The position numbers were made by a program, and so were the translations under genes. The notes under the pieces were generated by a model. That model was given only the letters and a program-made list of their open reading frames with translations, searched no databases and was not told where the DNA came from. Of a stretch of DNA of 64,000 nt, positions 19,282 through 60,842 are shown piece by piece. The DNA is taken from NCBI GenBank assembly GCA_013306675.1, contig JABLUY010000181.1, positions 1 to 64,000 of the forward strand. Reading direction: 5' to 3'. Every line of letters starts with the position of its first letter. The stretch's first letter is position 1. This DNA comes from Thraustochytrium sp. TN22. Taxonomy: Eukaryota > Sar > Bigyra > Thraustochytrida > Thraustochytriidae.

Positions 19282-19457
19282 CCTCCCGCGCGCCGCCGCC
19301 GCGCGCCGCCGCCGCGCCCGCTCGCCGCTCCGCGCGCCGCCGCGCGCCGCAGCCGCCCGATGCGATCCCGCCGCCGCCCGCCGCCCGCCGCCGCCGCGCC
19401 GCGCGGGGCAGGGAGGGAGGGAGGCCGGCAGGCGAGGGAGGCCGACCGCGAGCGCCG

Positions 19458-19489
<32 letters not shown>

Positions 19490-20220
19490 GCGCGCGAGCG
19501 AGCGCGAGCGAGAGGCGCGGCGCGAGAGTGATTTGAATCATGGCAAACAACGGCGCCGCCCTTTCGGACAGTCCGGATATGGTTCGGGACGCGCTGGCGA
19601 CCGTCCGAAATGGGCCCTCAAGGTCGGGCACCAGGCAAGGCAAGCCCGAAACGCGCGGCCACGCGCGGCCAAAAGGGCACGTTCGCAGCGAGCTCGTGGA
19701 GGAAGTCAACGTTATTCCCGGGAGCGACCCGGGAGCTCTCTGTCATGGTTTGAGCTTGCTTGTCGGAGCCCTTCCGAGTCGAGCAAGCTGGTCGCGATTT
19801 GGAGCACGGCTGAAGCGTGCGCGTCAAGCTCATGAATGTAAAGACCGTGACGCCGGACGATCTTACTTGCTAGCTAGCCTTAGTGCACATCACAAGAGCT
19901 GCTGCATGTGCCAGCGTGAGAGCGGCGTGCGAACACAAGGCCTCTGCAGGCCTCTCGATCGTCGAGGAGGTCGAGTAGCTGCAGAGCTACAGGCAAAAAC
20001 TGTCGCGCTACGGCGGCAGCTGCTGCAGGCAAGACTTTCTTCGTCCAAGGAGTGCGTCCAAGGAGTGAACGAGCTCGCGGACTGTCGATCGCGCCAAGAA
20101 GAGCGCGCCAAGAAGAGCGTCAAGAAGCGCCCCAGGATGCAAAGGTTCTCCAACCGTCGTGCTGACACGACGCCTAGCAAGCAAGCAAAGCAGACTCTGG
20201 CCTAAACTCGAAATCAAACG
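19282..20220. other. Divergent intergenic region, RPB2 / TBC1D19-like
   Basis: It contains CCG/GCC-rich repeats next to the RPB2 start (19300-19500) and a less GC-rich stretch to 20220. A 221-codon open frame (19540-20205, +) lies here, but its third positions are much less G/C-rich than in the real genes and its product is low in recognisable structure, so it is treated as non-coding leader/promoter. Confidence 0.55.
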
Positions 20221-24200: not shown

Positions 24201-26160
24201 TTACTTGCCAGGCCTGCGGCGACGTTGCTTCTTGACAAAGGGAGGCGGCTTGGCAGCCGCGTTGGCGGCGTCCTCAGCCTTCTTGGCGTCAATCTTGCGG
24301 TTGGCCTTGGCGATGTAGACGAGCGCGGCGCGCTGGAAGTTGGACTCCTGAGGCGCGATCTGAGCGTTGACCTCGTTGCGGATGGCAAGCACGGCCTCGT
24401 TGGTGTTGCGCTTCTTGAGCGAAAGAGCCTGCTTGAGTCGCTCGATGTTGCCGCGGAGCTGCTCGCGCTTGTCCTGAAGGCGCTGGTCGAGCTTCTCGAG
24501 CTGGACCGCGCGCTCGTCGCGGATGCGCACGTCCATGTCAGCGACCTGCTGGTTGTGGTTCTTGGTGCGCTCGGTGCGCTGCGCAGGGGTGAGGTTAGGT
24601 TCGAGTTTGAAGCTGTCCTTGAGGAGCTGCCGCGCCTGCGTGAGCTCCTGGATCTTCTCTTCCGCCTCCTGAATGGTCTTGAGCTTCTCCTGCTGGACAA
24701 ACTCGTCCAGGGTGGCGGTGAGGCCGTCGATCTCCTGGTTGGTCTCGATGCGCGCAGCCTCCTGCGCCTGCTCGAGCTCGCCGATCTTGATCTGCGCGTC
24801 GGCGTCGAGCGCCATGGCCTTGCCCAGGAGGTCGCCCCCCTGACGCTGCAGCTCGAGGCCCTCCTGGCGGAAGTCTGCCGAGTAGAACCAGTCGTCCTCC
24901 TCCGGCATCTGCTCCAGGACGCCCTCCAGGTCGGCGCGGACCTGCTCCATCTTCTGCTTGCCGCGCGTCACGATGGATGCCTGCGCCTGGCGCATCCAGC
25001 GCTGCAAAATGGCCGTGCTGGCGGCCGACAGCTGCACCGGGCCGAAGTTCATCGGGTCGTCCTTGGACGGGTCGTCCGCCTTGCCGGCAGCGCCGCCCGC
25101 GCCGCCCCTGCCCGCGCCGCCGCCCGGCCCGCCCGCCTGCGTACGCCGGCGCGACTTGCGGCGCGCCTCACGGCGCAGCTTGGCGTCCTTCATGCGGTTC
25201 GCGTACTCCTTCATCTGGTCGCGCGCCTCGGGCCGCGGGAAGTCGCCGCCCAGGCGCGCCCGCGCCGCCGTGAGCCACTTGGACATGGCGCGGCCCTCGA
25301 CCGAGGTGCGCGAGACGATGACCGGGTCGAAGACGTCGTCGTCCGCCTCGTCCTCCTCATCCGAGGAAATGTCCACGGCGCGCGCCACGCGGCCGCCGCC
25401 CGGCGCGCGAAGCGCGTCGCGCTTCTTGGCCATGTCGGCCTGGCGCTGCTGGTCCAGGCAGATCTGGCACCGCGTCGTGAAGCGCGCGTGGCCGCGGAAG
25501 AAGGCTTGCCACAGCGCGCCGTCGAAGCCCTTGCCCGGGTACGCCTCCTCGTATGCCTGGATGAGCTTGTCCAGCGCGCGAGGGTCCGGCTTGCCTTCCT
25601 CGTCCGCCAGCTCGGGCGACATCTGCACGCCGCTCTGCTGGTTGCGCCCGCACTGCGAGCACACGTCGTCGACCTGCTTCGCAATGTGGCCCTGCACCAG
25701 CTTGGCAAAGGCGCGCCGCTGCCGCGCGCGCTCCAGCCAGTACTGCGCGATAGCGCGCGACGACGCGCTCAGGGGCGCCTTGGACCAATTGCGCCGCAGC
25801 AGCTCCTGGTCGTCCTCCTCATCCGACGAGATGTCCTCACGGTCGCCCTCCTGACGCCGGCCCTCGCCCATGGCCACCAGGTCGTTGTACACGTCGCGAA
25901 TGTACTCAATATTGGGCCGGCCGTCCGGCCCGGGCATCTGCAGCGTGCGCGGCGTCAGCAGCTCCGCCAGGTGCTGCAAAATCCATGGCCGGTTGCGCTC
26001 CAGGAAGCGGTGGCGGAAGCGCTCCGAATTCATCGCCTGCAGCTCCAGTCGCTCCTGCTCCAGGTCCTCTTGCCGGCCGGCGCCCACCGCCAGCTTGTTG
26101 GCCACGTCATCGTCCACCGTACCCTCCAGCGACTTTAGCTTCCAGATGCCCATGCGGTCA
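24201..26160 (-). other. Giant protein: cytosolic-type C-terminal tail
   Basis: About 650 residues after the last span. The tail has a conserved-looking helical start (RMGIWKLKSLEGTVDDDVA), two CxxC pairs (CSQC near 25650, CQIC near 25465) that could bind zinc, two DISSDEED acidic sites, a Trp motif repeated three times, a Gly/Arg-rich linker, a long coiled coil (about 24800-24350) and a basic end (KKQRRRRPGK). Confidence 0.8.
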
Positions 26161-29100
26161 CCGGCGCGCCGCAGCAGCCGCTCGCACAAGTGGCACAGCA
26201 GCCACACAATCAAAGCGATTGCCGGCATCATCGGGTCCGCGAACAGGTTGTACGTGTTGCGAATGTGCACCGTGACGCCCAGCACCAGGAGCAGAATGCC
26301 CCATGCGTGCACGCCCGCCAGGAAAAAGTACTGCGACGAGAAGCACAGGCTGTCGATGAACTGCAGCTTGGGCGCGATGCTCTCGTCCAGCGTATCGGCG
26401 TCCATCTGCCAACGGTTCTCACGCACCGAGAACCGGTACTGTTGGTACGAGACATACTCGTAAATCTTGAAGCCCAGCGTGAGCTCCTGCGTGTGCAGCA
26501 GAAAGATGTCCATCGCCAGCGTGAACGGAATGATGAGCAGCGAGAACATAAAGTAGAACTTCAGGTCCGTCTCGCGGATCCCGTAGTTGTCCGGGATCTC
26601 CGTCGTCTTGTTGAAGACGATCAGAAAGATGTTCGCGAACGGCGCCATCATGAGCGCCTGCGCCGAGTTCACATACGTCGCATACGCACCCAGCAAGGGC
26701 TCCACACCCTCCATCTCCAGCGCGATCAGCTCGTTCACCTTCTTCCACTCCGCCTCCTCGCGCGCCCGCTGGTCGCGCGTCATCTTGCGCTTGTTGTTCA
26801 CGAAGCGACGCCGCAGCATCAGCTTCCACTTGGGCCACATCAGCACGATGTGGTCCGAAATCGGCTCCGCCACGAGCCGCTCCAGGAGCATCATGCCCAG
26901 CTCCACCTCGTACGAGACCACGAAGTCCATAAAGTCCGAGGCGCCCATGGTCACGATCATCTCCACTACCTGAATCACCACGATGAAGGGCGCGATCAGG
27001 TGAACGTCGCGCACCAGGTCCTGCAGCATCAAGTTCACCACCATCTGGCCCACCTTGAAACACACCAGGAATTCCACCACGTACGTCTCGAACCAGTAGC
27101 TGTAAGAGAACTCAAAGATCACCAGCAGCACCAGCGACTCCACGAGGCTCAGCAGCATCATATGCGTGCGCTTCCAGAACCGCGGACGCCACGTCACGCT
27201 CGGCTCCAACTCGTCATCCTGCAGCTCTTCCAGCTCGTCGCTGTCGCCGCGGTTCACGCCGTACTTGGCGCGCTCGTCCCGCAGCCGCTCGCTGAAGCGC
27301 TCCTTCGGGATCGCCAGCCGAATCGCCGCGCGCATCATGTAGAGCGCCACCAAAATAAAGACCAACCCCATCCGGCCCTTGCGGTATCGCTCGCGGTTCG
27401 TGTCCGTCAGAATCAGCGTGTCCTGAAAGTTGCCCGTGATGCCCTCAAAGGTGGGCGCTGACGGTGTCTTGGCAGGATCGTCAGATCCAAGGAAGGAAAA
27501 CCAGAACAGCGTCAGTAGCGAGGCCAGCGCGACCGGCACCGACGCCAGCAGCATGCCGTACGCCGATGGCTTGCCCACCGTGCGGTAGAACGAGAAGAAT
27601 TTGAACGGCGGCGGATGCTTGAGCCGCGTCAGCACGCGTGCAAATGCCCACAGCACGACGCCCACCATCGTGCTGCCGAAGCCCACCACCGCAAAGAAGA
27701 GCGCATACACGTCCCAGCTGAACTGGAACGTGTTGATCAAGTCAAACCACCCGAGCGGGCTCCAACGCAGGTACAGCGTGTACCCGTAGTCGTCGCTCTC
27801 GCACTCCTCAATGGGCGGGTCATACTTGGCGTATTTCTCCAGGGTCGCCGGGTCATCCGACACCGTGCACATCTCCCCGAATCGGATCGACCCATACACC
27901 AGCGACTTTTGCTCCGCCGTGTACTGGTAGTACATGAGGAAGAGGTAAACCTGCCGCGGCACCAGATTCTCCTGGCTGCCGTAGTTCTCTTCGACGGCGA
28001 TCGGAATCAAGTTCTCCGTGCCGATCAACGAAGCAAGGTTGTCGCGCCGGCCCCACTTCTCCGAGTCCGTTGCAACGAAGTCTTCCACCGACACAGGGTA
28101 CTTGGTCACGTGAAAGAGCGTCGTCTCCTCCCCGGCCTCGTACCAGCGCGTCTTGCTCGCGGCCCGTCCAATGTTCTCCTCGTACGTGCACGAGAGCGAC
28201 ATGCCCGGGTAGTCCGCCTCCTTGTCCGCGCAGTCGCTAGAGTCCACACAGAACTTGTCCGGCGCGTACAGCTCGTCCAGCTCGTCCGGCGGGAGCCGGC
28301 ATTCGTCTGCCTGCGGCTGCATCTGGTCCTTCCATGGGTACGGGCTCACATAAATGGTCTCCTCCAGCGAGTAGTGCGTGCAGTGCGGCGCTGGATGCAT
28401 CTCGAGCACCTTGCTCATGTAGATGTGCGAGTCGTACTCGCGGCAGTTGCTAAAGAATGGCAGGTACTGCAGCGCAAAAAAGTCCGCGCCCTCGCTATCG
28501 ACCAGGTCCCACCAGCCCTCATCGCGCTCCAGCACGTCCGCCAGGTCGCGGGCAACGTACTCCAGCGTCGCGTTGCTCGAATTGCTGCTCCCGCTCGTCA
28601 GCTCGTCCAAAGTTGTGTACGTCGCGAGTCCCCGTCGCTGCCGCCGTGATGAGGCCTCCTCGAACTCCGTGTTGGACCGCGTCCCATACTCCGGGTCGCC
28701 AATGAGCACGCGCGCCACGCGGTCGATGAAGGCCGCATTCTCCACCTCGTAGGCGCTGTAGTCCGTGCCGGAGGCTGAACCGGACGAGCGCATCGAGAGC
28801 GGCAGGTTGTACGGCAGGAGAAGGTCGTCGAAGTCGTCCTTGACCAGCACAGAGACGAACTGGTCTCGCGCGCCCCAGTTTGCTCGCGACGGCCGGTGGA
28901 TCACGATATCGCCTGCGGCGGGCGAGATGTCCTGAAACGGGCCGTAGTACAGACCGTGCACGAGCTCCAGCACGACCACCATCTCCAGGTCACGCACCGC
29001 CGCGACGTTGATCTGCACTAGCGCGTGCTTGTTGTCTGGGTAGTCCTCCGGCTCGTGGTAGACGTCCTCAAAGAAGTACGGCAAACCATGCCGCTCGCAG

Positions 29101-32100
29101 CTGCAGCACTCCGGCGTCTCGTCCTCGTCCAGGTCGTCACAAATGAATCGCACTTTGCACGGCTTGCAGTCAAAGTACACCGACAGCTGATAGTGGTCGT
29201 TGTACGTCAGGTTGCGCATCACGTCGCGCAGATCCAGAGTCACCACAGCGACGTCCCACGCCAGCAGTGAGACGGTGCCCATGCCCACGTAGCCGTTGGA
29301 CACGTAATCACCGAAAACTTCCGAGGCGAGTTCCTCGTCGCTCGCCTCTCGGTCCACCATCTCAAGAGTGCCCGTCCAGCCGTCCATGTTGACCAGCGGG
29401 TTCATGGGCACAATCGGCATGAGGCGCGTCAGTACTTCGTTGCCGTTTTTCACGCAGTTGTAAATGTTCGTCGCGCCCACCAGCGAGGTTGTGCCGTCCG
29501 GACACCGGGCCAGGTCCTGGCACGAGCATGCGTCCAGCCGCCCAGACTGCAAGAGGGCCTCTGCCGCCTCGCCGAAGAGATCGACAAACTGCACCGCGGC
29601 CCACAGGTCGTAGAGAATCGCGTCGATGTACGAGCATTGCTCGGTCGAGCTGCACGCCACCTTGTTGTCCAGCTGTATCTGGAAGGCGCCCTGATACGGG
29701 TTGTACGAGGTTGCCGTCGCCAGCACGCCGTGACGGTCGCGCAGCCGCGCACCCATCAAATCGGCTGAGTCCTCGTCGATCAGGTTCTCTTCCTCGTCGA
29801 ACACGAAGGCCTTGAGGTCGTCATACGAGAAGAAGGACATGCTGCGTTTGTGCATCTGACCGCCGTCATTGCGGAATTTGAACAGCTGGCACTCCTCCGG
29901 GTTTTTCGTGCCGTCGCAGTAGGTTTCCATATCGTATAGCGTGGCCTCGCTCGCATTCTGCGCCAATTCCACCAGACCGCCGTGCGCCACGTCCTCGCAC
30001 TCAATCGAGGGGTCCAGTGCGTGGTCGCACAGCTTGCGCGCCTTGATGAAGCGCAGCTCGCTCGTCGTGTAGGCAAACTGCGTCGGGAAGGCCCCCTCCG
30101 CCGCATCGTCGCAGCTCGCCAAGCCCTGCTTGCACGCCCACAGCGCGTAGACCTGGAGGGCGCGCTCCTGGAAGGTGTTGCAGTGGCACCGCTGACGGTC
30201 TGACGTGTCCGTGTTGAGACGCCATGTATGATCGCGGCCGCAGAACAGGTTGTTCTCCACCGCCAGCGAAATGTAGCCGTCGTACAGACCCTCTGCCGTA
30301 CGCTTCATGCGGTAGGTCTCCTGTAGTTCCTCGTTGATGCCCTTGAAGCACCGGTCGTCATGCGCTGAGATCTCGCGCGGCTCGAAATTTTCCGGATCCC
30401 AAGTTGCCGTGTACAGGTAGGTGTGATACGGGTCGGCTGTCGTCTCGTTCAGCGACCTCCGAAGCGAGTCGGCCGCTACCATGCCCGTGTAAGGGTTGGC
30501 GAGGCCGGTGGGGCAAAAGTAGCCCACAGGGCACGGCTTGGACTGCGCCTGGCCCTTGCCCGTGCCGCGCTCGCAGTAGTAGCCCTCCTCGCAAAGGAAG
30601 TTGTAGCGGCCCTGCGGCGCCTCAAGGTTCACGTCCAGGGTCGTGCCAAAGTCGCAGTAGTACCCGGGCTCGCACTCCACGTCCAGCGCAGTCACCGCGT
30701 TCGTGCCCTCGCCGCATACGTAGCCCTCGTTGCATGGCTGCGCCTCGGCTTTGTTGGTGTACGCGCAGATCAGGTCCGCCTCGCAGGTGCCCACGACCCA
30801 GGAGTCCGCCCGCGCCGTTGTATTGTACGCAAAGTAGCCCGAAGTGCAGTTTCGCGACGCGTAGTACCAGGTCGAGACGGGCTGGTCGATGTACAGCGAG
30901 CCGCGCCCGTAGTAGCCCTCGTACGTGCCATCGCCGTAACCCTGGTGGTAGACGCCGCCGGATTGAATCTCGTACCGCGGGCCATGAAAGTCCTTGAACC
31001 GCTGGTAGACCTTGCTGCCATCCGGCTGTGTGTTGCGGTAGCACTGCACGGTCGACGTGAACGCGGTCCCGTTCGGGTAGTACACGGTTTGCGACGTGCC
31101 CTGGATCGCCTCCGACTCCACAAAGTTGGGTCCACGCCCCAGCGAGTCCACGGGGTAGTCCAGGTAGCCGTAGTAGAAGTTGTCGCCCTTATTCAGGCAC
31201 TTGTACCGCGACTCGCTCAGACCGGTCGGCGTGTACGGAAGCGGAAGGTCGTCAAACGAACAAGGAAATGACATGCCGTCCATCGGGCACGTTACGCCGG
31301 GCGGGCAGATGGTGCACTCACTGCTGTTGCGCAGCTCCCAGTTCTTGGACCATGTGCCGGCCGGGCAGCCTCGGCACACCACGCTCTCGCCGGGCCCTGT
31401 CATGGTCTTGTACGTGCCCGGCGGGCAGATGAGCGCCTCCGACGTGCCGTCATTCACGCACTGCGTACCGGCAGGGCACGGATAGCAGGAGACCGTCTCG
31501 ATCGTGGGCGCGTAGTAGCCCGGCAGACACTTGGCCGGCTGCACAGTACCCTCCATGTATGCAAAGGTGCCAGGGTCTGTCGGGATGGGCACGGCCGTGC
31601 CCGCCGGACAGTAAAAGCCCTTCGGGCACAGGCCCGAGCCCTTGGGCGACGTCGAGCCGAGCTCGCAGTAGAAGCCATGCGCACAGGGCTGCGCGTAGAG
31701 GTAGTCCCCCTCGCGCGACTCGTCGTAGCCCACACCGCCCGGGCAGTATGTGCCCGGGGCGCACGGATATGGGCGCAGCGTGGTATCGTTTCGGAAAACG
31801 TCCGCGGTCATGGTCCCGTTCGGACAGAAGAAGCCGGCCGGGCAACGCATGTCCGGCTCGCTGAGGCCGTCCATACTGCACACGAAGCCCGGCGGGCAGG
31901 TGGCCGGGTCCACGCGGCCGAAGCCGGAGCAAAAGTACCCAGGCGGGCAGCTCGTGCACGCCGTCTGGCCCACCATGCTGTTGAAGGTAGTGGGCGGGCA
32001 CGGTAGCGGCGTGTCCATGCCCTCGCGCGGGCAGTACGTGCCCACTGGGCACGAGAGGCGCGCCCCGAACGGGCAGTAAAAGCCAGCCGGGCAGGACCCG

Positions 32101-35100
32101 GCGCCCTGCGGCGTCGCGCTTCCCTCCGGGCAGTACATGCTCTCAAAGCACGGCTGCGGCGTCGTGAAGTTCTTCATGTGCCGGTCGCCCACGGCCGTGC
32201 CGGCCGCGCAATAGCTGCCGGCCGGGCACGGCACTGGCCGCCGCAGGTTGAAGGCGCTATACTCGAAGGCGTAGTCCGTCACGCGCATCGCGTCTGCGTC
32301 GCTCAGGCGCATGCAGCTGTCATCCAGGCAGAATCGCCCACGCATCGGCACGAAGGGCGCCTCCGGGTCCAGCGGTAGCAAGTGCCGCTCGGACCAGAAG
32401 CGTGCCGGATAGCTCGTCACCTGCAGACCAAAGTCGTCCGTCGCGTTGCTCCAGCACGCCGTCTGCCGCGATCCCAGCACGAAATCGCCGCCGCGGGGCG
32501 CACGGTGCTTGCGAATCGTGCCGGCCAGCTCACCCAGCCGCCGTGAGGGCGTCAGCTGGCTTGACAGCACCGACGGGTCGCCGCAGGTCGTTGCGGTGGT
32601 TGCCGTACCTTCGAGGCAGAAGTGTCCTTCTGGGCACGGCTGCCGCGGCTCCTCGGTGCCCGTCACGTCGCACACGAAGCCTGCCGGGCATATGCGCGGC
32701 ACGCGCATGCCCTCCTCCGGGCACGCGTAGCCGATCGGGCACCGCAGACAGCCCTCCGTGCCGGGCAGGGGCTGATACGTGCCCCGCGGGCACAAGGTGA
32801 AGTTCCCGTTGCCCGTGCCGGGGCAGTACGCGCCCGGAGGGCAACGCAGCGCATGAGCGGCGTCCGGACAGTACATGCCGCCCGGGCACGGCCCCCAGCT
32901 TTCAAACGTGACAAAGTCCGTTGAGTAATCGTACGCGTTGTTCGACGCCTCCACGACCAGGTGCCTTCCCACGGCATCGTCCCCCACGTCCGGCGACACG
33001 AGCACGCTGCACAGGAGCAGCGTCGGGCTCAGGTACACGGCGCGAAACTCGTGGTGGCCCAGACGACAGCTGAGGTCCGTCGAGTTCACGAACCCGCTGC
33101 CCTGCACAAAGAGCGACAGCCCGCCCTCCGTGCCAAGGTAGCCGCCAGACGGCATTACGCTGGCGACCGCCGCCTCTTCAGTGTAGAGAAATCGCTTGCC
33201 CGTGTGGTGAAAGTCTGCGCCGTTGACCGTCGTCTCCACGTCCACGAGCCGGGATCGGTACAGTGGGAACCCGTGCGCGTCGGGGTACAGCGCAGTTCCG
33301 TCCTCGTGCACGTGGCGGCCGAGCGCAAAGTAGTCAAGCGCCAGGTCCAGGACCGGTGTCAGGCACTGAATCTCGCTCTCGTGCACGAAGCGCGCCGGGA
33401 CCACGAGGCGGCCGTCGAAGCGGCATGCGAGCGAGGTGGAGTTCGCAAACCCGGAACCACGCAGGACGAGCTTGGACGCCGGACGCGACGCCGCGCCGCT
33501 ACGCGGCACCATGCTGCGCACCTCCGGAGCCTCAAAGACCAGAAGTTCCACGGGCAGGGCCACAAAGTCCAGTCCGTTGCTCGAAACCTCCACAAGTACG
33601 CGAGCAGGCTCCGCGAAGGCATCCTCCGGCACGAAGCATACCAGCTCAAATGCATCGACCCACGTGGCGGCCACAACCACGGCCGGCACGGTCTCCAGCG
33701 CGTCAACGACGGAGAGCCGGCACACCAGCTCGTCCGTGGGCGCGAAGTTACTTCCCATAATGCGCAGCTCCACCTGCTTGCCCAGCGGAGCTTGTCTGGG
33801 GAAGACGTCGCGCAGAACGACCGGGTCGGTGTATGTGAAGTTGACGCCGGTCCCAACGAAGTTCGTCGCCCGCGTCCCGATGCGGACCTCGCGAGGGCCG
33901 GCCCATGCCACGGCGGGGCTAACACAGTACACGCAGCTCGCGTTCACGGCAAAGGCCTCGCTCGGCTCGGCATTGCCGAACTGGCACGCCAGCTCCTGCG
34001 CGCTGGCCGCCGCCGCTGCCGCCGCCAAATGATCGCCCAGCACCACCACCAAGGTGCCGCCGTTTGTCGAACCATGGTTCGGGTACACGCCACGCACCAC
34101 GGGAACTTCCGTGAACTCGTACGTGAGCCCGCTACTTGAGAAGTCCTGGCCGTTAATGGCCACCTCCACTTGCACCTGGCCGACGGGCTGAGCCACGCCC
34201 TCTTGCACCGTGCGCGTCCAGGCACGAGTACCCACGAGCGTGGAGGACCCCTCGTCCACGCCGAGCCGCGCGTAGGGCTCACCGTCGGCAAAGCTCACCG
34301 TCCAAGATTGCCCGCCAGTCGAGTTCGTGTCTGTCCTCGACACAACTGCGTCGTGCAGCCAGGGGTCGTCCAGCCGCTGCAGCGCGCGCTTGATGTCCTC
34401 CGCGGTGGTGTCCAAACCAATGCCGATGTCCAACGTGCGCTCGCGGCAGACGCCCTCGTAGCACGGTCCTGTCACCATGAGCGCCAGCGTACCGGAGATG
34501 CGCGCTGTAGTGCCTGCCTGATTCTCGGTCACGACCACCTGCGCGAGGTTCTCAACATTATCGGTAATCAGCACCAGCGGATCCAGATCGCCGACGAGCT
34601 CTTCCAGCGCGGTCACCTGCCAGGTCGCGGCAGCCACCAGCGTCACCTGCACCGGCGTCGCGTTGTAGCCGTTGCCAACCAGCACCTCGGCGAGCGCGTC
34701 CGCAACCTCCTCCGCCGACGCGTCGACCGCGAGGGACTGCGTGAGCCGCGATGCAGGGCTGACATTGGGTGGGAACCACGTCAGAGGCAACTCCACCACA
34801 AAGGTGCCCTCCAGTGCGTTCCCGTCATCTTGCAGCTCCACGGTCTGCACCTCGTTGTAGGTCTCCAGATCCAGGATGGTGACGCTCGCCGTCAAGCCGG
34901 CTGGGCCCTCCACAGCCCCCATGTCCACGGCAAGCAACGCGGAAGTGCTTCGCCCGTCCAGCGATTGATCGAGAAAGGTCACATCCCAAATCGCGCTCAG
35001 GCTGCCATCCGCGGCGGTCGTGAACCCGTCGTGCGTCACCTCCACATCGGAGATGTAGGGGAGCAGCTCCAGCGCCGCGGCAAGATCCGCGCCTGTGGTG

Positions 35101-50100: not shown

Positions 50101-53100
50101 GCGCAAGCTAGCACACCGTCCGCCGCGACCGATGCGGCGCTCATGAGCGCGCCGGCGCTGCGGAGCGCATCACTGCCGACAGGTTCAAAAATGCAGGATA
50201 GCGAGTCCGCGGCCAGGTCGCGGGCCCCGAGCTCTGCGACATGGACGTGCACAGGTCGGCCAGGAAGCACAAAGCTAGGCTCGACGCGCGTGATGGTCAT
50301 GTCCGGCACGTAGGAGAATAGTACAAAGTCCTCCACGTGCTGAGCCCAGGTCTCGTCCCACAGGCCCCAGCGACTGACTTGAACCGCCACCGAATGCGAA
50401 GCGAGGTGGGCCGGGGCGCGCGGCGCGCGGCACGTGGCGCTGTGGGCAGTCAGCACTGTGGCCGGGACGACGGTATCGCCAAAGCGGCACTTCATGCCGG
50501 TGCCAAAGTTCGTGCCGCGCACCGTCACCACGCGGCCCTCAGAGCGGCCCCCGCGTACGGGCTCCACCTCGCTGATCGTCTCCACGTCATAAAAGGTGAA
50601 GGCAGCGCTGTCATCGCTCTTGGCGGGCAGCGCTGTGCCTTGGTCCACCAGAGCCACGGCAAAGACCGCCCGGCCCGGTGCACGGCGCGGCGCTGGGCAC
50701 GCGAGGCGCCGCGCGTCTAGCCAGCGCGCCCGGACCGAGTCCTGCAAGCCGAAGCGGCAGCTTGCTTCAGCGCCAAGGCTCCGCAGGGGGCCGTCAACAG
50801 GCCTGTCCAGCGTCACGACGACCTCGCGACCGCCGAGCTCCGAGGTGCCCGAGGGCGAGACTCCGATCACCTCATACGGCTCGTGGTAGAAAAAGGCCGC
50901 CGTCGCAAATGCCTGGGCATCCCCGCTGGTCTTCAGCGTCACGGTGGCCCACCCGGGACCCGGAGAGGCGGGGAGGGAGCACGCGACGCTCTGAGACCCA
51001 GTCGCGCGGCACGGGACCTCGGCGGCCTGCTTGTTCGGCAGGATCACGGTGGCGCCCAGCGCGACGCCCGACTCGGGCAGGCCCTCGAAGTTCACGTCCA
51101 CGCCAGCTGTCCGTGGGCCGGCGAGCGGGACCGCAACGACGCGCTGCGCGGCGGGCCCAAAGTGAAAGCGCGGGCCCTGTGCTAGTGCCTCCGCCAGCAC
51201 GCGTGAGGCCGCGCCGGCGCGCTGCGTGCTGAGACGAATCAGCGCGACCGCGGCACCGCCCACGACGCGCTGCGGCGGGGTGAGGCAGGAGAGCACGCCA
51301 CGGCGACCCGGCACCGCAAATGCCGGTGTCTCCTTCCAGCGCTGCGAGCCGTCGAGGCCTTGGAAGGCGCACACGAAGGGATCGCGCACGATACCGGCCT
51401 CGCTCATCGTGTTCAGGTTCGTCTCCAGTACCAACACGGTGCCGCCGCCCACGGGCCCCCGCTCCGGCTCAAGGGCCAAGATGCGTGCCGCGGGCCGCAC
51501 CATGACGGGCTCTGGTGCCCGGGCTACGTCAACGCCCGCGTTTACGGAGAGCTCGACCGCAAAGACGCCGGCGCCGAGGCCCGTGGGCAGCGGACAGCGG
51601 ACGAGACGGCCGATGGTCGCACCGACGACAACCTCCCGCCGTTCGCCATCCACGAAGTGGCACTCGAGACCCCGGCCGCCATGCGTGGCGGGCGCCGCGC
51701 TCTCCAGCCACAGCTGCACCTCTTCGCCGTCCTCGTCGACCTCCTGGTCCACGATCTTGCGGACCTGAAGCGGCGCGTGAATGTAGACATAACCCGCATC
51801 GGCGCGCACATTCTCCGGCGCGGAACGGTCGACGAGCTGAATGCGCAGGTTGCCCGTCTGTAGAAGGTGCGGTGCGCCCTCTCGACGGGGCAGAGCGCAC
51901 GTCACGGTGCCCTGCACCGCGTCAATGGCGGTGACGGAAGTCAGATTTGCCAGTCCAAAGTCGCACGCCAGGTCTCCGCTCTCGACAGCGACCGCGCCCG
52001 GCCATCGCAGGCGTAGGTCGCGCGAGGCGAGTGCTGGGACGAGACGTGCATCCGGAAACGCGACGGTCTCGCCCTGTGCACGCAGGAGAAGCGGATGCGG
52101 GCTTGTGGCAAAGTCGCGGCCGTAGTTGAAGGAAACCTCGACCTCAACACTGCCGATCTCGCCCAGCGCTGGCACGGTGCAGGCTACAGCGTTGCCGTTC
52201 CGCACGCGACCGGCGACAACCACGCGACGTGCGAACCTGCAGAGCGCCACGGCATCGTCATCCGACAGCCCGGGTGGCAGAACAGCAGCGAGGTCGGTCT
52301 GCAAGTGGAGGACCACCTCAAGGCCGCCCGTGTGTGGCCCTTCGCGCGGTTGCAGATTGGCGACGACCAGGTCAGGTTCGACGCGAAAGCGCTCGAGCGC
52401 GCCGAAGAAGGCAATGCCGTCGACGCTGAGCGCCAGCTCCACCATTGTGCGGGCTGGGAGTGACGGCGCGCGGCAGGCCACGGCGGAGCGGTCGACCCAG
52501 CGTCCGGGCTCGGGCTCGAGACCGCCGAAGCGGCAAAGCACCGGACCGAGCAGGAGCATCGCGTCTGCCTCCTGGGCAAGCTGCACGAGCACCCTTGTTC
52601 CGCCGCGCGGGGCGCCTGAGGGTGGGAAGAAGGAGGCCACCTCGAGACCGGGCGCCACCACGACGCGCACGGCCTGAGAGACCTCAGCGCCGTCATTGCA
52701 GCTGACAGCCAGCTCCACTGTGGTAGCGACGCCCGTTGCGGCCTGAGCCGGCACCGCGCAGGCGAGTGCCGTACGATTGAGCAGCTGAGCCGGAGCGACA
52801 GCATGCGCGCCGAAATGGCAGGTCCAGGATGCCGAGGTGGGCGCCTCGAAGCGGCCGCGGAGCAGCAGGTTTGCACCCGCATCGACCCGCGAGGGCGTCA
52901 CGGAAGAAATCAGCACCGGCGCTGCGTACAGGAAGCTGGCGTCCGAGGCGCTGCGGTGCAGGCCTCCGTTGTTGGACACCGTCACGAGCGCGTCGCCCGT
53001 CGCCGAGACGGGCGGCGACACGCAGACGGCTTCGGTTTCGGAACGCACCTCCGCGGACGCCGCGGCGGTGCGGCCAAAGTAGCAGGCAAAGGAGGGGCCT

Positions 53101-56100
53101 GCGCGAAAGCCAGTGCCGAAGACGGTGACGGCAAGCCCGCCGCGCAGAGAGCCGAGCGCCGGCACAATGGCTGAGACCTGGGCACGCGCCACGACGCGCA
53201 GTGAGAGCGAGTTCGAGTAGTCTTGCCCGTTGCTGGAGAGCGCGAGTTGGACGGGCCCAGGGCGGAGCTGGCGCGCGTCCAGCGCGCAGCGCACGAGCGA
53301 GGGCGTCACCAGCGTCGCTGGCGTGGGTTCCGCGTCGAAGCCGATTCGGCAGAGCAGGTCCGCGTCGTGATGAAACCCTGAGCCGGCCACGTGGATCTCG
53401 GCGACCTGATCCTCCGGCACCGTGTCCGGCCACAGATGGTCAAGCTCGACGGCGTCCTCGTAGCGAAAGCTGTGGCTCGTGTGCGCCCCCGTGCTGCGCT
53501 CCAGATCCTCGCGGCTCACGAGCGCCTCGGGCAGGACGTGCAGGCTTGCGAGGCCTGGGCCAGCGCGCGCAGGCGGCGTCGTACAGCTGAAGATGCTGTT
53601 GCCCTGCGGGCGCGCCTCCACCACGTCTCGGTTCGCGAACACGCACAAGAGGGCGCCCATGTCCGTCGCAATGCCGGTAACCTTGATAGAGACTTCTGTG
53701 CCGCCATGAACCTGGCCGCTGCGCGGTGCCACGGACACGACAGCGAGCCGGCGCTCCACGCGCACCGTGGCGCCCGGGTCGGGCGCGGAGAAGTCCTGAC
53801 CACCGTTGAGCGAGACGCGCACCGGGAGAGCCTCCTCCTCATGCCAACTCGCGGCGCCGAAGTCGGGCACGGTGCACTCGGCTTGCGTGCTGGAGATGAG
53901 GCGGCCTTCGCCGACAACGTCGCCGACGGCGCAGACCAGACCAGCCCCGCCGATATCGGCGGCCTGAAAGCCCGTGCCGAACACCTGCAGCGTGCTGCCA
54001 GGCAGCGCGATGCTTGGCTGCACGAAGGCAACGCGCGCAAGCATCGCGTAGTGGAAGGCCGCATCGCCCCCCTCAAAGTCCACCGCGTTGGCCGAGATCT
54101 CGACGGCGACCGCCTGGCGGCCGACCGTCGGGACATGGGGCGGCGCCACACAAGATGCGCGTTGCGTGCTATACACCGTGGCCGAGACAACCTGCGCCCC
54201 TCCAAAGCGGCACAGGAGCTCGGTCTCGAGCGGAAAGCCTTCGCCGCGCAGCTGGACCTCGGTCCCACCAGTCTCGGGCCCGAGCTCGGGCTCGATGCCG
54301 GCGAGGGAGAGCGGCGGCAGAAAGGAGAAGGTGACGACTCCCGCGTTGCGACGCGGCAGCGGCTGCGATGGCGTGCCGACCGCAAGGAAGAATGTCGCGC
54401 CGGCTGTGAGGTCTGCCACCGCTGGCGTCTCGCAGGAGACGGACGAGGCGGTCACATTGGCCACGGCTACAGCGTACGAGGAGTCGCCATTGTAGAACTT
54501 GCATTCCAGAGAGCGGTCCAACGGGAAGTGATCGCCCGCGAGCGTTAGCTGCGTACCGCCCGTTTGCGCACCGAAAGCAGGGTAAACTGCGAGGACGGCC
54601 GGCTCATCCAGGGTGACGAAAGTCGCCGCTGAGGAAAAGCTGACACCGCCGTTCCACGAGAGTTCAAGCGCGCCGACACTTGGACTGTCGGCCGCGACAA
54701 CCTCGCAGTACACCGCCGTGGTGCTCGCATCATGCACTACACGTGCCACTGAGACGCGGCCCGTCGAGGTGAGCCGGCACACGGGCACGAGCGCGGCGGA
54801 AGGCGGCGTCTCCTCGAGCTCCAGCCGCACCTCCACGGCCTCGCCCATGAGGACCGCGGCGGGCGTCAGACTCTGAACCGTTGGTGGGTCGAGCGTTGTG
54901 ACGAGGCCAACTGCTGGAAAGACCGTGTGGAGCTCGCCGCTCCCGTCGCTGTGGTGGCCGCCGACCAGGTCGACACGGTAGGTGCGCCCAGCATCGCTCT
55001 CGAGGCCGGCCGGCCACGTACAGGTTGCGAGGCCAGCGCTCAGCGTTACCGGCGCCCTGGCCACAGACTCGGCTCCTTCAGCGGGAGTGATCGAGCAGGC
55101 GGTCCACGCAAAGCTTTCGAGCAGGCCAATTGCCGCCGCGGCGTCCTCGGAGAAGCTGATCCATAGGCTCTCCTGTCCGCCGGCATGGAGCACCGACGGC
55201 CAGAGCGCCACCGCGGGGTCGCCGCTGGCTGGCAGAAGAAGCACAAAACTTGCCGCACCGGCCGCGCGGTGCGGCACTTGATCGCCGTCCACAGCAACCG
55301 TGAGCTCCCACACCACAGAGAGCTGGCCGGCCGCGGCCGTCGTGGCTACCTCGAGCAGCGTGTCCGGGAGGGCGCAGCGCAGGCGATCGGCGCTCATGAA
55401 CGAGGCGGCAGTCTCCAGGTCCGCCGGGGCGCCCTCGGCATGGAAGACGCACGAGTACGTGTGCTGATCGCTGGGCAATGCCGGAATGCGCCCGAGCAGG
55501 TCGATCGTGGTGCGGGTCGAGCCGAGAGAACTTGCCGTGACCAGTTCTGGATCCGCACGCTCAATCTCGGGCGGGGGAAATCCTTGGACCAGCGTGGAGC
55601 CAGGCAGCGCCACGCGGCCGGCCGAAAATAGCACACCGAGCGAGTAGTTGCGCGCGGCTGCCCCCCCAAGGGGCGGCACCGGGCAAACGAGAGTGAGTGC
55701 GCCGGTCTCGTCATGGGCCACGACGCGGGCGGCAGATACCCAGCGGCTGTCCGTGCCATGCTCGAATGCGTCAAACTCGCACTGAAGGTCCGAGGAAGCA
55801 TCTACGAGGTTCGAGGGGACACCGACCGCATGCACGGCGACTTCATGACCAGCGCCCATGACAAAGGCCTGCGGAGTATCGTTCGGAACGATGGCCGCCG
55901 CGATGCCGGTGGCTACGTGCCACAACGTGAAGGAAAGCACCGGGACGTGCTCGCCAAGCCACCTGCGCTCAACGACACCAACGGCCTCGACGGCGTCGTG
56001 CGGGATCTCACAGCGCAGCTCGCGCTCCGCGGCCCAAGAGACTGGCCCGAGCAGGCGCTGGGCAGCATCCACACAGACCCAGTCGGCAGCGGCGGCGCGG

Positions 56101-59100
56101 GAGACTGCCTCGCTCAGTACCACGCTAGTCGTGGTCCCTACAAAGCCGTGAGCTGGCTCGAGAGCTGTCGCAGCGGGCGGCGATAGCACTTGCACACGGA
56201 CCGGATCCCGAGGGTTGACAACCACGTTCCCCTGCGACGCAAGCTGCAGGCGCAGGACGGTCACGTCGAGTCCGTGCGGGAGCGCGCAGGAAAGAGAGCT
56301 GCCGGTGGGGTCTTGATCCACGATTGGAGTGCTCGCAACCACGGAGCCGTCCGTGTCCAAAGTCCAAAGGCACTGCACGCGTTCCACATCAAGGTGGTGA
56401 AGGTGAGCACCCTGGACCTGGATGAGGTGATCTTCGGTGCCAACGTGCGCGGCGAGTACATGCGTGGGCGAGGCAGCCCAGACCTGCGCAGAGGGCAAAA
56501 CCTCGAAGAGGTCCAGGGCGCGCGTCGCGTGGAACCCGCCATCGAGCGACACACTGATCTCGTAAATATCCTCAGCGAGTGGCGGCTGCACCAAGGTGAG
56601 ACGATCGACCTGCACAGCCCGTGCCGTCACGGTGTGCTGGTATCCCGTGGCAGGGCTCCTGAAAGTGCAGGTGACGCTGGACGCGTCATCAGCATTGACT
56701 GGAAAACTGCCGTGCAGCGTGATGAGAACACCGCCAGAGGCTGTGCCAACCGCCGGAAGCAGATCGTCGATGACGATGGCGGGCTCAACGGGAAGTTCCA
56801 CCTGCGCGAAGGCGCCGGACATGGCGCAAGATTGCGAATGCTCGGCGTGCTCGAGCCAGAGCCGTGGGCGCAGACACAGAGAGGCGTTCTCACCCGGCAT
56901 GACGGTGGCAAGGCTCGCAAAGGTGCAGGCGACAATGCTTGGCGTGAGCGCATCGGCAGCTACGACGAGGGAGTCCCAGTCGTTGACGCTGCCTTGGAGC
57001 GGCTCCAGAACGCACTCGAGGTCGCCTGCGGAGGCGAGCGATCCATCATGCGTTACCTGCAGACGCGTGGCCTCACCTGCACGAATGGAGACGAAGGCGG
57101 GGCGGACCTCGGTGGCGCTCGCATCGGGGCCGAAGGTCAGCATCAGGCTGTCCTCTGCCACGAGCGGCAAGGTGACTTCATCGGAAGGCACGATGGCGAC
57201 CGCGACTTGGTCACCGGCGCCATCAATGTCGGCACGTGCGGGCGCGAGACAGACCACCCGAGAGCTCTGCACTTCGATGGCAGGCACTGCGACAGCGCCG
57301 TTGAAGACGCAGGCGGCTGTCGGCGCGGAAACGACGTCGCGTGTCTCGGTCTCCACAACGATTGGGAAGCCACCAGCCAGCGGCACGACTTGGGGCCAGA
57401 TCGAGACGAGGCGCGGCATGACCTCGTAGGCAAATGGGACGGGCGCGGTCGAGCCGATGTCAAACCCGTTGTTGGAGACGGCGACCCAGACGATGAGCCC
57501 GTCGGAGCGCGCGTCGAGGTCTGGGTTGGCGGCCAAAAGGGCGGCGCGCGCCGGGACCCGACAGGCGAGCTGCGACGAGCTCAGGGCGGCGTGCGCCGGC
57601 ACACGCAGCACGCCAGGACCGTCTGCACGGCCAATGTGCGGGCGCGGCGCGAAGATGCAGGTCAGGTTGGCGTCTGCCGTGTGAAAGGCGGAGCCGAAGA
57701 CCTGAACGTCCGTGCCCCCGGTCGATGGGCCCCGTGCCGGCTCCAAACGCTGCACGATGGCGTCCGACGTGAAGGTGAAGGAGGCTGCGGTCTCATATGT
57801 TGCGCCGTTGCGCTCCAGACGCACGGCGGCGATCTGGCCTGCGCGACGGGCGGGTGGGGAGAAGCACGCGATGGTGCGGTCGTCCAGGCGGTGCGCGGCG
57901 ACGCGGACACGTCCAAAGAGGCAGGTCCAGACATCGTGCGGGCGGATTGCGTCGGCGGTCTGCTGCGCGGCAAGGGTGAGGGTGAGGAGAACCTTGGTGC
58001 GGCCAGCGACCGCGCCGTGCGTCGGGTGTATGGACGACACGACGGGCGGGTTCCGGCGCTCGAGAGCGGCCGTGTTGCTGCGAAAGCCTGACTCATTTTC
58101 GACAGCGAGCGAGATGCGGCCCGGGCGTGGCAGGTCCTCGCGGAAAAGGTCTGCCGGTGGCATGCATTGCACGAAGTCGGTCCCTGACGTGCCGCTGAGG
58201 CCCTTGACAGCAGGCGCAGTGAGCTCTACGAGGCCGCCTGTATCGGCCTCGGGGGCGTACGCGAAGACACAGACCAGGCCCTCCATGGCTGCGCCGATAA
58301 AATTCAACCCTGTGACCGTGATAAGGTCCGTCTCGGCGGTGATTTCTCTCGGCGCCACGCCGCTGATGATAGGAATGGCGGCGAGGCGGGTCCCGACCCG
58401 CATACGCTGCGACGCGGAGAGCGCGCTGCCCTTGCCGTAGTTGCCGAGATCGTTGATGGTGAGTTCGACCTGGTCGTCACCCACGTAGCGCAGCGGAGCA
58501 TCAATGGTGATCTCTGCGAGCGCCGCGTTGACGTTGGCAAGCGTGCCGGAGAAGTCGAGCGCAGTTGCCGTACGCGGCTCAAGTGAGAGACCGGCCTCGC
58601 GCGCGAGCTGCAGACGTCCGTCTGAGTCGCCCTGCAGGCTCAGACTGACTTGCACCTCGTGACCGGCGGGCGCCTGGGCGGCGTCGATGTCAGCAACACC
58701 AAAGTTGAGCAGGCCGAGCTGCACGTGGTCGTAAGGGCGCGTCGCCACGAGATTTTCTGCGTCGGGGACCGCATGCACAGTGATTGGCACCGTGACGCGC
58801 ACCGCGGCCTGCGCAAGGTCCTGGACGTCGGCTTGGGCGGCGCCCTCGAGTTGCACCGAGTACGTCAGCGAGGCCATCGCCTCGCCTGTGGCGTGCGCCT
58901 CGGGTGCATACGTGAGGAAGGTGTCGTCCGAAGAGAGCTGAAGTGGCAAGTCTGCGCTGGTGATGAGAGCGTCGCCAAGCCCGCGGTAGAGCGAGCCGGT
59001 GGCCGGGATGGCTTGGAGGACTACCTTGAGCGCGCGTCGGCGCAGGTCCGTGGCGTTGAGCACGAAAGCCACGGGCGTGTCCTCTTCGGTCTCCACGCGA

Positions 59101-60765
59101 TCGTCGATGTAGGTCGCCGTGCTGGGCAGAATGGCCGGGACAGCCGTGGTTGCGGCGTCGAGCGAGACGAGCTCCAAGCTCGCCCAGGCGTCGAGGCCCC
59201 AGACGGCGCTGCGCGTCCGCGAGAGCAGGTTCCACTCGTGAAAGGGCAAGTAGGCAGCGAGCCCGTCCTCCATGCCCGTGCTGCTGTACCTGGCGAGGCG
59301 GGCCGCCTCGGCGGCGGTGAGCGCGCGCGTCCAGAGGTGCACCTCATCGAGCTGGCCAAAGAAGAGGAACTGGCTCTGGCGGGCCTCGTCCAGCGTGCGC
59401 GCGCCAAGCACGAGCGAGGAGGAGGGAGAGGGAGAGGAATGCACAGCGGAGGTGGCGACGCCGGCGCTCACGGGCGCCTCGAGCGCCAGGCCGGCGAGAT
59501 TTGCGTGCAGCCGCGAGCGCGCGGTCTCAACGCCCGCCACATAAAGGACGGCCTCGTTGTCATCCCACGACAGTGCGAGGTGCGTCCAGGCATTGAGCGG
59601 CGGCGTGTAGTAGGTGTTCCAGGCCCAGGCGCGCGCGCTGTCCTCGCCCATGGTCACGCGCAGATCGCTGGACTGCTTTTGCGGCTCCCAGCTCAGGGAA
59701 ACCTGAAACCAGGACCCGGCGGGTCCGCGCAGCGAGGCGATGACAGCCTCGGTGCGACCCGTGGGCGCCGCCTTGGTCGCGCGCGTCGGGAAGACCCAGA
59801 AGCTGACAGCGAGCTGCCGCAAGGTTCGGCCTGCCGTGCTTCCGGCTGGCGGTGGCGCGAACTTGCGCAGCTCCAGGACCTGAGCGCCGGCGAGCTGCAG
59901 AGCATAATCGGCGGAGCGCGCAGCGAGCGGCGGGGGCACGCGCTCAAGGACTGTGCCGATGAGCGCGAGCTGCGCGAGCTCCGTTGCGGAAAGCGCTCTG
60001 CCGTAGAAGAAGGCGTTGCGCAGCGCGCCGCGCAGTCCACGGCCCAGGGCGAGTGTGCGGTCGGCGAGCCCGGTCGCGGCGCAGGTCGCACCAAGGAAGG
60101 GCAGACTGGCGGCGACAACGCCGTCCACAGCAATGCGGGCGACCTGCGCCTCGGGAGCCGTGTCGACGGAGACGGCGACAAGGGTCCAGCGCTCCCGTTG
60201 TACGGAGACGCCTGAGCGCAACAGGTCGCCGCTGCCCTCCAGGCGGAGCACCCACTCGCCCTGGTCAATCAGGAGCGACCAGCCGGCGGTCGGGTCCTGC
60301 CCAAGCGAGGTGATGAGCTCCGTCGCCTGGTTCTCGTTAAAATCCGGCGCGGTGGCCGTGCGTACCCAGACGCCGGCTGCGAAGGCCTGCCACTTGCAGG
60401 AACGCAGGTCAAGTGGCAGATCGGCGCGCGCCTGGCCGTCCATGTACAGCGCTCGCGTGCCGAGCGGGCCTGCGCTGGTGGACCTCCCGCCCAGATTCAG
60501 CGCTTCGAGCGCGAAGCCGTCCTCACTCACTGCGTACGGCGCCAGATTGCGCAGGACCTCCGGCATGTCGCTGGTCGCGTCCTGCGTATTGTCATCGTCC
60601 ATCGGGAAGAAGGCCAGCAGGTCGTCTGCCGCAACCACCGCCGCTCCCGACGCGCTACCTGGGTCAGCGGCCCTCACCGCTGACGCTAGCACTGCGACCG
60701 CAGCAGCGATCGCCACTACCCATCCTTTGTTGTCGGCGCCCCTCACGCGCCTGCGCCTACCTCGG

Positions 60766-60798
<33 letters not shown>

Positions 60799-60842
60799 GT
60801 TGGCAGCGTCGGCGTCGGCAGCGGCAGCATGGCCTCCGCCAT
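24201..60842 (-). CDS. Giant IPT/TIG-repeat multi-span membrane protein (about 12,213 aa, single exon)
   Basis: One uninterrupted frame of 36,642 bases. I chose ATG 60842 (MAEAMLPLP); ATG 60830 is also possible, and the frame extends without ATG to a GTG at 60998. In order: polyQ (16-25) and a basic run, a hydrophobic signal (41-56), two LamG-like domains (about 75-540), a cadherin-like segment (about 578-720), IPT/TIG domains (about 821-6334), an array of another repeat (6334-6761), more IPT (6761-7437), a second array (7437-8897), four IPT (8897-9317), a Cys-rich GCC2/GCC3-like region (9317-10134), a membrane-proximal ectodomain, about ten membrane spans (11041-11557) and a charged tail. 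Animal IPT-rich fibrocystins are far shorter, lack this C-terminal half and carry other domains. I infer a cell-surface or flagellar adhesin/receptor of about 1.3 MDa. Repeats keep family residues throughout, so it appears to be under selection. Confidence 0.93.
26165..27725 (-). other. Giant protein: multi-span membrane region
   Basis: I count about ten hydrophobic helices, for example ALFFAVVGFGSTMVGVVLWA, AYGMLLASVPVALASLLTLF, FYFMFSLLIIPFTLAMDIFL and ALIVWLLCHLCERLL. A lumenal N-terminus and a cytosolic tail would need an odd number, so nine or eleven is likely. No channel, ABC or GPCR motif is recognised. Confidence 0.8.
30440..32890 (-). other. Giant protein: Cys-rich GCC2/GCC3-like region
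   Basis: About 820 residues with many CPxGxYCPxG-type units (CPPGAYCPGTG, CPAGFVCD, CPVGTYCPREG, CPPGYFCSGFG and so on), the ephrin-receptor-like/GCC2-GCC3 pattern, interrupted by two Cys-poor inserts. Confidence 0.88.
32890..34110 (-). repeat. Giant protein: IPT/TIG block 3 (four domains)
   Basis: Four IPT-type units, beginning PVVRGVYPNHGSTNGGTLVV and ending before the Cys-rich region. They retain the P-x-x-G-x-x-x-GG, CxFG and NGxDF marks in degenerate form. Confidence 0.82.
34190..38530 (-). repeat. Giant protein: second-repeat array B (about 13 units)
   Basis: Roughly 100-110-residue units with G-[ST]-F-x-L at the start, LPYDASA-like then a short helix in the middle, VEVTR, then WxVTF and GDLPxL. 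Clear units include GTWGFSLDGHRVRGLPYDAS and GSFALSYDAEYTSPLSRNTS. The first three or four are degenerate. Confidence 0.75.
38530..40560 (-). repeat. Giant protein: IPT/TIG block 2 (about six domains)
   Basis: The units start PVLQSVSPLFASPQGQTHLE, LRIVEVQPERGNTRGGIVL, IHLDALSVGAGPRAGGTAL, PVVVSATPLSAPLRGGTLV, AQVLEVQPMFGPVSGGTLL and VVVQAVDPPYGTRLGGTSV. The last is split by array B. Confidence 0.85.
40560..41840 (-). repeat. Giant protein: second-repeat array A (four units)
   Basis: Four units of the same roughly 100-residue repeat, opening GSFTLSFRSETTSALPFD, GTFDLSLNGASQTLAHD, GSFTLTFADSTTRPL and GSFRLGFEGAWTEDLPF. Most carry a WxVTF-like strand about 45-50 residues later. Confidence 0.8.
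41860..58380 (-). repeat. Giant protein: IPT/TIG block 1 (about 56 domains)
   Basis: About 5,500 residues at a mean spacing near 98. Typical units read P-x-x-G-P-x-x-GGT-x-[LV]-x-[VI]-x-G-x-x-F, then CxFG, then C-x-x-P and a closing NGxDF. Around nine are degenerate, so the count is approximate and by eye. Confidence 0.85.
59100..60625 (-). other. Giant protein: N-terminal LamG-like and cadherin-like region
   Basis: Two concanavalin-A/LamG-type units: FFPMDDDN to the RNAFFYGRALSATELAQL end motif, then SVSFWVFPT to FFGQLDEVHLWTRALTAAE. A segment starting EEDTPVAFVLNATDL follows, as in cadherin-like/Big repeats of adhesins; it lies at the lower edge of this interval and beyond. The closing FYGRAL and DEVHLWTRAL motifs are typical of LamG-type lectin folds. 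Confidence 0.8.
60771..60800 (-). repeat. (CAG)n on minus strand, polyQ near the giant N-terminus
   Basis: Ten glutamine codons just ahead of the basic run and signal hydrophobic segment. Confidence 0.9.

Follow-up and report, generated by a model that had tools for sequence, protein, structure and literature searches.

We report that the window analysed here, i.e. the first 64,000 nucleotides of contig JABLUY010000181.1 of Thraustochytrium sp. TN22, carries on its reverse strand one unbroken frame (24201..60842) for a protein of 12,213 residues, which is best explained as a giant repeat adhesion receptor combining an unmatched membrane core with an unexpected repeat shared with viruses. Specifically, the predicted protein begins with a signal-like segment and a lectin-type tip, continues through a cadherin-like region into a long arm of TIG repeats interrupted by phage-type repeats, and ends with a Cys-rich stem, 11 hydrophobic helices and a charged tail, and a full-length paralogue with the same domain order and a dissimilar tip is encoded on another contig. 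That the protein acts as a cell-surface adhesion (attachment) receptor is the function to which we give about half of our belief.

The genome searched comprises 37.9 Mb in 453 contigs, and contig C90 begins with the window. The coding frame runs from the first ATG (60842) to the stop codon (24201-24203), has neither internal stops nor N, covers 36,642 of the 64,000 window bases (57%) and encodes a protein with a calculated mass of 1.30 MDa; the first-pass annotation had given its coordinates and length exactly. The same annotation held that this is no open-frame artefact, and our data agree: the remaining five frames over these 36.6 kb hold 82-312 stops apiece with a longest open stretch of 688 codons, which argues against chance, and the existence of a full-length paralogue with the same domain order (contig C35) makes a chance frame, a gene fusion or an assembly artefact very unlikely. 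GC at the third codon position is 0.76-0.90 across all 13 blocks (≤1,000 codons each) of the frame. Its further statement, that a frame of this size is very rare in eukaryotes, needs qualifying for this genome, where single frames, counted stop to stop, reach 16,302 (C66), 10,347 (C35), 7,961 (C126) and 6,738 (C288) codons, followed by 4,693, 4,640, 4,481, 4,456, 4,403 and 4,348 codons; an unbroken 36.6-kb exon is therefore less odd here, and these long single frames suggest that the genome is intron-poor.

Several genes, or a decayed gene, might share the open frame by accident, and we note that its status as a single transcript is read from DNA and that a second hydrophobic peak (residues 843-861, mean hydropathy 1.64) follows soon after the tip. 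However, this peak does not reach the height of the signal-like one (2.07) and falls within a TIG repeat (residues 826-920), the C35 paralogue keeps the same order in one frame on another contig, and the second codon positions of the core are 61% identical between the two genes (28% with random pairing) while the third positions are 47% identical (39%; for the three positions in order 0.49/0.61/0.47 against 0.26/0.28/0.39). We regard an accidental frame as highly improbable and conclude that the open frame is real and represents a single, very large surface-receptor gene, probably of old age. Tandem Repeats Finder reported just two short arrays within the frame (32435-32481 and 60767-60798), and a direct-repeat search gave at least 60 families of short repeats, which among those displayed were mostly 61-82% alike; from this we infer that the repeats of the protein arose long ago and have since diverged, and are not recent DNA duplications.

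The C35 paralogue (C35 6671-37711, plus strand) occupies the 10,347-codon frame and would comprise 10,067 residues if translation starts at the methionine that precedes its hydrophobic segment. The paralogue shows, in the order of the window protein, a signal-like segment, a tip, a cadherin-like region, approximately 65 TIGs, a Cys-rich region, 11 helices and a tail with two CxxC motifs. BLASTP aligned window residues 8887-9858 (the nearest TIGs and the Cys-rich stem) with C35 residues 7503-8486 at 32% identity, and window residues 10532-11962 (the core and its flanks) with C35 residues 8922-10318 at 26% (E 6e-129), and in the TIG arm the longer matches are approximately 21-27% identical; aligned with MAFFT, the core piece 11019-11640 is 36% identical in amino acids over 591 codons. 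The C35 protein differs in its shorter tail, in the phage-type repeat, of which a profile search found no copy there, and in its tip, since residues 60-560 of the window protein gave no BLASTP match at E≤1 when compared with C35 residues 1-1,300 (the Pfam scans of C35 covered the protein from residue 274 onwards outside contig bases 20003-29998). By sequence comparison this is one chassis with two different ends, a combination that is easier to reconcile with recognition receptors than with a uniform structural coat.

All features of the window protein given below are on the reverse strand. A Gln/Arg-rich N-terminus of 40 residues precedes the hydrophobic signal-like segment (residues 41-59, 60666..60722), which was identified by hydropathy and is directly followed by the Laminin_G_3 (concanavalin-like lectin) tip (residues ~61-515, 59298..60662; Pfam E 6.5e-22), where one Pfam scan gave two matched stretches and another three, read by us as two domains. 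The cadherin-like region (residues 650-811, 58410..58895) is 27% identical to C35 (E 3.6e-7), in which Cadherin_4 is matched at E 2.2e-4, under the Pfam cut-off. The TIG repeats form three arrays: the first (residues 826-6336, 41835..58367), predicted with Pfam and an iterated local profile, holds 56 of the 66 repeats, the second (residues 6792-7426, 38565..40469; iterated profile) six, and the third (residues 8915-9308, 32919..34100; Pfam and profile), which adjoins the Cys-rich region, four. TIG (PF01833) scored above its cut-off in three overlapping pieces (E 6.4e-85, 2.7e-169 and 1.3e-23), and the iterated profile, built from the TIGs of both paralogues, counted at E<0.01 66 repeats for the window protein and 65 for C35, or 64 and 63 at E<0.001; one shuffled copy of the window sequence of the protein yielded none. 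The Pfam model by itself supports fewer, 20 of its 62 genome-wide matches falling in the giant gene.

The TIG array is broken twice by a repeat of approximately 95 residues, which is present in four copies in the first block (residues 6387-6763, 40554..41684; profile) and in 12 in the second (residues 7554-8882, 34197..38183; profile and structure model). None of the 16 copies received a name from Pfam (best E 0.018; eight families, each in one copy), and NCBIfam, in a scan that covered the protein apart from the tip and most of the TIG array, gives the repeat no name either. A profile of the 16 copies searched against the PDB sequences matched the tail-tip protein gp23 of mycobacteriophage Bxb1 (9d93) with E 1.9e-25 over three to four stretches, the Bxb1 major capsid protein (9d9w) with E 3.9e-4 and its tail-tube protein with E 0.016, and the Bxb1 proteins and the window repeats align on the common core GxFxLxxxGxxTxxIxYxASxxxVxxAL. 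As a control, the repeat profile at E<0.01 gave no match in shuffled and one in reversed sequences. An AlphaFold model calculated from the 16-row alignment (pLDDT 84) consists of beta strands with one helix; in Foldseek its two best matches were both to the Bxb1 capsid (probability 1.00; E 0.014 and 0.038), followed by a flagellar cap protein at rank 3, a different mycobacteriophage at rank 4 and chains of Bxb1 at ranks 5-8, with none of the 67 matches reaching E 0.001. By sequence the window repeats are related to exposed domains of the Bxb1 capsid and tail proteins, and the model predicts a likeness in fold. PHROGs was matched weakly, by one of the 16 copies (E 3.8e-7) and by the whole block (E 1.1e-4 and 1.3e-4); tblastn with the repeat copies found none in 72,556 plasmid records, and pattern searches yielded no confirmed bacterial or further viral copy (406 and 44 pattern matches, respectively).

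A related repeat is present in the longest frame of the genome (C66:165526-214431, minus strand), which has a signal-like start and at 48.9 kb exceeds the window gene. In the portions examined, the first 2,144 and the last 1,491 residues, the repeat alternates with fibronectin type III domains, with 12-13 copies in the former and four in the latter. The first part matched PHROGs tail families (E 5.9e-34) and, by single-sequence phmmer, gp23 (E 4.2e-11), and a 640-residue piece used in tblastn matched 190 of 50,697 phage records, every one at <60% identity. C446 and C126 also match this part of the query, though less strongly than C66 does. Two short pieces at C451:92797-92972 (plus strand), 70% and 76% identical to the window protein around residues 7658-7720, are far closer to it than the other matches listed.

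The Cys-rich region (residues ~9318-10120, 30483..32891) carries repeats of the Ephrin_rec_like/GCC2-GCC3 type, as suggested by borderline Pfam scores, composition and the paralogue. Scanned alone, this piece matched Ephrin_rec_like (PF07699, GCC2/GCC3) with E 0.0011 and 19.2 bits against a cut-off of 23.1 bits, and nothing was found at E≤1 when it was scanned within pieces of 2,213 and 4,613 residues; in C35 the model reached 34.9 bits, above the cut-off. One weak phmmer match to meckelin (E 0.9, residues 9767-9852) was neither confirmed nor excluded; a two-sequence profile of residues 9880-12213, a range downstream of that match, gave nine matches (best E 0.035), none of them meckelin. A juxtamembrane region (residues 10532-11040, 27723..29249) is conserved with C35 by BLASTP, and residues 9880-11018 gave no Pfam match at E≤10.

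The membrane core (residues 11045-11557, 26172..27710), delimited by hydropathy and the C35 alignment, comprises 11 hydrophobic helices in both paralogues at a mean hydropathy of ≥1.0, the weakest in the window protein being 1.21. The lysine and arginine counts of the loops favour a topology with the N-terminus outside and the tail inside in both proteins: in the window protein four of the six inside stretches have 6-13 K/R (the other two one and five), and the outside stretches have 0-3, apart from the loop that precedes helix 3 (6 K/R and 6 D/E). Net charge supports this topology less, with three of the six inside stretches net negative. The core found no match in Pfam (E≤1), NCBIfam (E≤0.1) or, as a two-sequence profile, the PDB sequences (E≤10); no relatives were confirmed among viral contigs (39 pattern matches) or prokaryote genome contigs (81), and a genome search with the C35 core returned, among the matches listed, C35 and the window gene only. 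Judged by sequence, it is a eukaryotic family without a match in these three libraries.

Such a core might itself be the working part, a tethered channel or transporter for which the arm would serve as gating spring or positioning device; 11 helices, long inside loops and an N-terminus that is probably extracellular would suit this, as would a core that is 36% identical by MAFFT where the TIG arm reaches approximately 21-27% by BLASTP. However, by BLASTP the core with its flanks is 26% identical and the stem 32%, no channel family was matched in Pfam, NCBIfam or the PDB sequences, and the single-sequence AlphaFold model of the core has a pLDDT of 41.8, too low to judge the fold. OSCA/TMEM63-type proteins are 11-span channels, and neither these nor other 11-span channel families were matched by the core in Pfam at E≤1. 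We consider a tethered channel or transporter distinctly unlikely.

The C-terminal tail (residues 11558-12213, 656 residues, 24204..26171), cytosolic by the predicted topology, contains acidic serine stretches (SSDEEDD), a motif LSxASxxI..WLxxA, whose LSxASxxI..WL part is matched strictly once in the window protein and three times in C35, and a charged segment that is probably a coiled coil, in line with a composition of up to 34% charged residues. Two CxxC motifs (CSQC 11728 and CQIC 11792, 25458..25661) recur in the same places in C35 (CEQC 10121 and CLAC 10173) and may form a zinc-binding module; in a genome search with the tail, C35 was the only match besides the window gene among those listed. 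The first-pass annotation had listed LamG, TIG array, GCC2/GCC3, multi-span segment and coiled-coil tail, and had proposed a Pfam scan for these domains: that scan found Laminin_G_3 and TIG and left the GCC2/GCC3 type borderline in the window protein, although the Cys-rich region is present and C35 passes the cut-off, the multi-span segment was recovered in both paralogues, and for the tail its presence and charge stand while the coiled coil is a matter of composition. The list was incomplete, having overlooked the 16 phage-type repeats, the cadherin-like domains and the paralogue; its remark that the layout matches no described family holds for the C-terminal core.

Considering the protein as an attachment receptor, the approximately 66 TIG and 16 phage-type beta-sandwich repeats (~82 in all) would form a flexible arm of about 0.3 μm when fully extended, assuming ~4 nm per domain, that carries the lectin-type LamG tip well beyond the cell coat. 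The phage-type repeats may act as weak, multivalent glycan-binding beads on this arm, by analogy with mycobacteriophage Douge, where glycans on the mycobacterial surface were bound by Ig-like domains of the capsid and tail tube according to the available part of the report (PMC13033339). The Cys-rich stem and the 11-helix core would provide the anchor in the plasma membrane, and the tail, with its paired CxxC, acidic serine motifs and probable coiled coil, could link binding to the cytoskeleton or to signalling; an 11-helix base together with a conserved tail suggests that a binding signal is passed inside the cell. C35 would use this chassis for a second receptor that has another tip and lacks the beads, so that the pair would differ in ligands. 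Settling zoospores, vegetative cells or the ectoplasmic net, through which thraustochytrids attach (PMC12221091, as far as its available text goes), might use such receptors on organic particles. In favour of an attachment receptor, the signal-like segment precedes the LamG domains, and the number of TIGs is nearly equal in the paralogues while the tips show no similarity.

Several points weigh against this function. LamG_3 domains are not always lectins, and an 11-helix base exceeds the needs of plain adhesion and hints at transport or signalling. The domains tested in Douge may belong to another sequence family than the window repeat, and tblastn found no copy of the window repeat in the 50,697 phage records. 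Moreover, a study of Aurantiochytrium (PMC12221091) does not, in its available part, describe any of its candidate ectoplasmic-net proteins as a TIG protein, and the words TIG, IPT and lectin are absent from its main text as available. The adhesion role is thus proposed from sequence and model evidence. A more far-reaching version, which we hold to be improbable, is a class of >1-MDa receptors in which a single polypeptide contains both a tether resembling a tip link and an 11-span core for signalling or channel activity; tandem glycan-binding domains shared with bacterial viruses would have been inserted into an ancient TIG arm, and thraustochytrids would use exchangeable tips to recognise particles.

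If the attachment receptor is real, it provides a molecular candidate for the sticking of thraustochytrids to particles, and the core adds a eukaryotic membrane family without a match in the libraries searched. A virion surface domain occurring as tandem repeat in giant eukaryotic proteins raises the question of gene exchange or shared glycan recognition. Finally, uninterrupted frames of 31-49 kb can occur in a protist genome, and gene predictors may split them.

Among other genes, the window encodes an RPB2-type protein (RNA polymerase second subunit; 15577-19281, minus strand) in one frame of 1,234 residues with all seven Pfam domains; antisense to it lies a GTG-start frame of 1,257 codons (15763-19536, plus strand) without any Pfam match. 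A condensin subunit is also encoded in the window as a long single frame. Elsewhere in the genome, two PfaD-family matches (C124:42424-43761 and C415:117114-118451; E 5.8e-200 and 6.8e-198) lie in open frames of 2,083 and 1,719 codons, a layout that we take to be that of subunits B and C of the PUFA synthase in thraustochytrids; these two matches point to a thraustochytrid, and hence to a stramenopile, as the probable source. A giant cadherin-like and TIG frame of 4,640 codons (C277, from 154217 onwards, minus strand) ends, by reading, in a very long charged tail that is probably coiled-coil.

In comparison with known systems, our literature search found no report of TIG giants in thraustochytrids or other stramenopiles. 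The window protein shares with PKHD1L1 and fibrocystin the nature of a large extracellular IPT/TIG protein with a signal sequence, and PKHD1L1 (4,249 residues, 13 IPT domains, one span and an 8-residue tail) coats stereocilia, as described in the available part of the source (PMC6707252). A similar role in a flagellar or zoospore coat, as a glycocalyx or mastigoneme-associated protein, might be considered, also since a 4,403-codon frame in the genome (C409:159327-172535, minus strand) reads as an axonemal dynein heavy chain; this frame also has one TIG match and, at its N-terminus, a kelch-like region. However, PKHD1L1 and fibrocystin differ in their 13 IPT, G8 and PbH1 domains, single span and tiny tail, whereas the window protein has 11 helices and a 656-residue tail and the Pfam scans showed neither G8 nor PbH1; membership in the PKHD1/PKHD1L1 family was rejected on these grounds, and we consider a coat function improbable.

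Polycystin-1 type proteins carry PKD repeats, REJ/GPS, PLAT and a channel domain, none of which appeared in Pfam scans covering the whole protein, and the plexin/Met type carries Sema and PSI domains, for which there was no Pfam match, only TIG-type models of that kind; both types were set aside. The Tgr proteins of Dictyostelium are far smaller and have neither LamG nor a multi-span core. Their TIG domains mediate cell-cell binding (PMC12324515, available text), and the likeness to the window protein, as far as this source describes it, consists of adhesive TIG domains, a transmembrane segment and a signalling cytoplasmic domain.

The alveolate CRMPs, regulators of exocytosis and proposed contact sensors associated with rhoptries and mucocysts, have nine spans, or five in Tetrahymena, in the available parts of the descriptions (PMC9670195, PMC9815656). 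These descriptions depict a gross layout like that of the window protein, with a signal sequence, an adhesive ectodomain, an ephrin-receptor-like/EGF-receptor-like Cys-rich region and several C-terminal spans, so that the arm could detect contact and the membrane core trigger exocytosis. The differences, drawn from descriptions only, are 11 helices against nine (or five) spans and the lack of a TIG array in the CRMP descriptions as available. A separate giant family in the genome (C11, C99 and two copies on C399 with frames of 4,348 and 4,456 codons) has cadherin-like, Cys-rich and TIG parts, approximately 10 C-terminal spans and, in one C399 copy, a C-type-lectin-like start; by reading it is closer to CRMPs than the window protein is. 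The window core failed to align with the cores of C99 and the two C399 copies (hhalign probability 0.2%, a comparison of low power with Neff 1.4 and 1.2). On this result, with the in-genome family standing in for true CRMP sequences, we do not assign the window protein to the CRMPs; a CRMP-like mode of action is conceivable, but we consider a contact sensor of this type unlikely.

For the attachment receptor, the likeness to gp23, capsid and tail-tube protein of Bxb1 concerns the ~95-residue repeat alone, which is part of the virion there and stands in tandem in a eukaryotic protein here. The giant RTX adhesins of bacteria present a ligand-binding tip on a long arm of Ig-like repeats; they differ in their bacterial secretion, in their other domains and in having no multi-span anchor, and they offer a comparison in the way of working for the arm and tip layout of the window protein.

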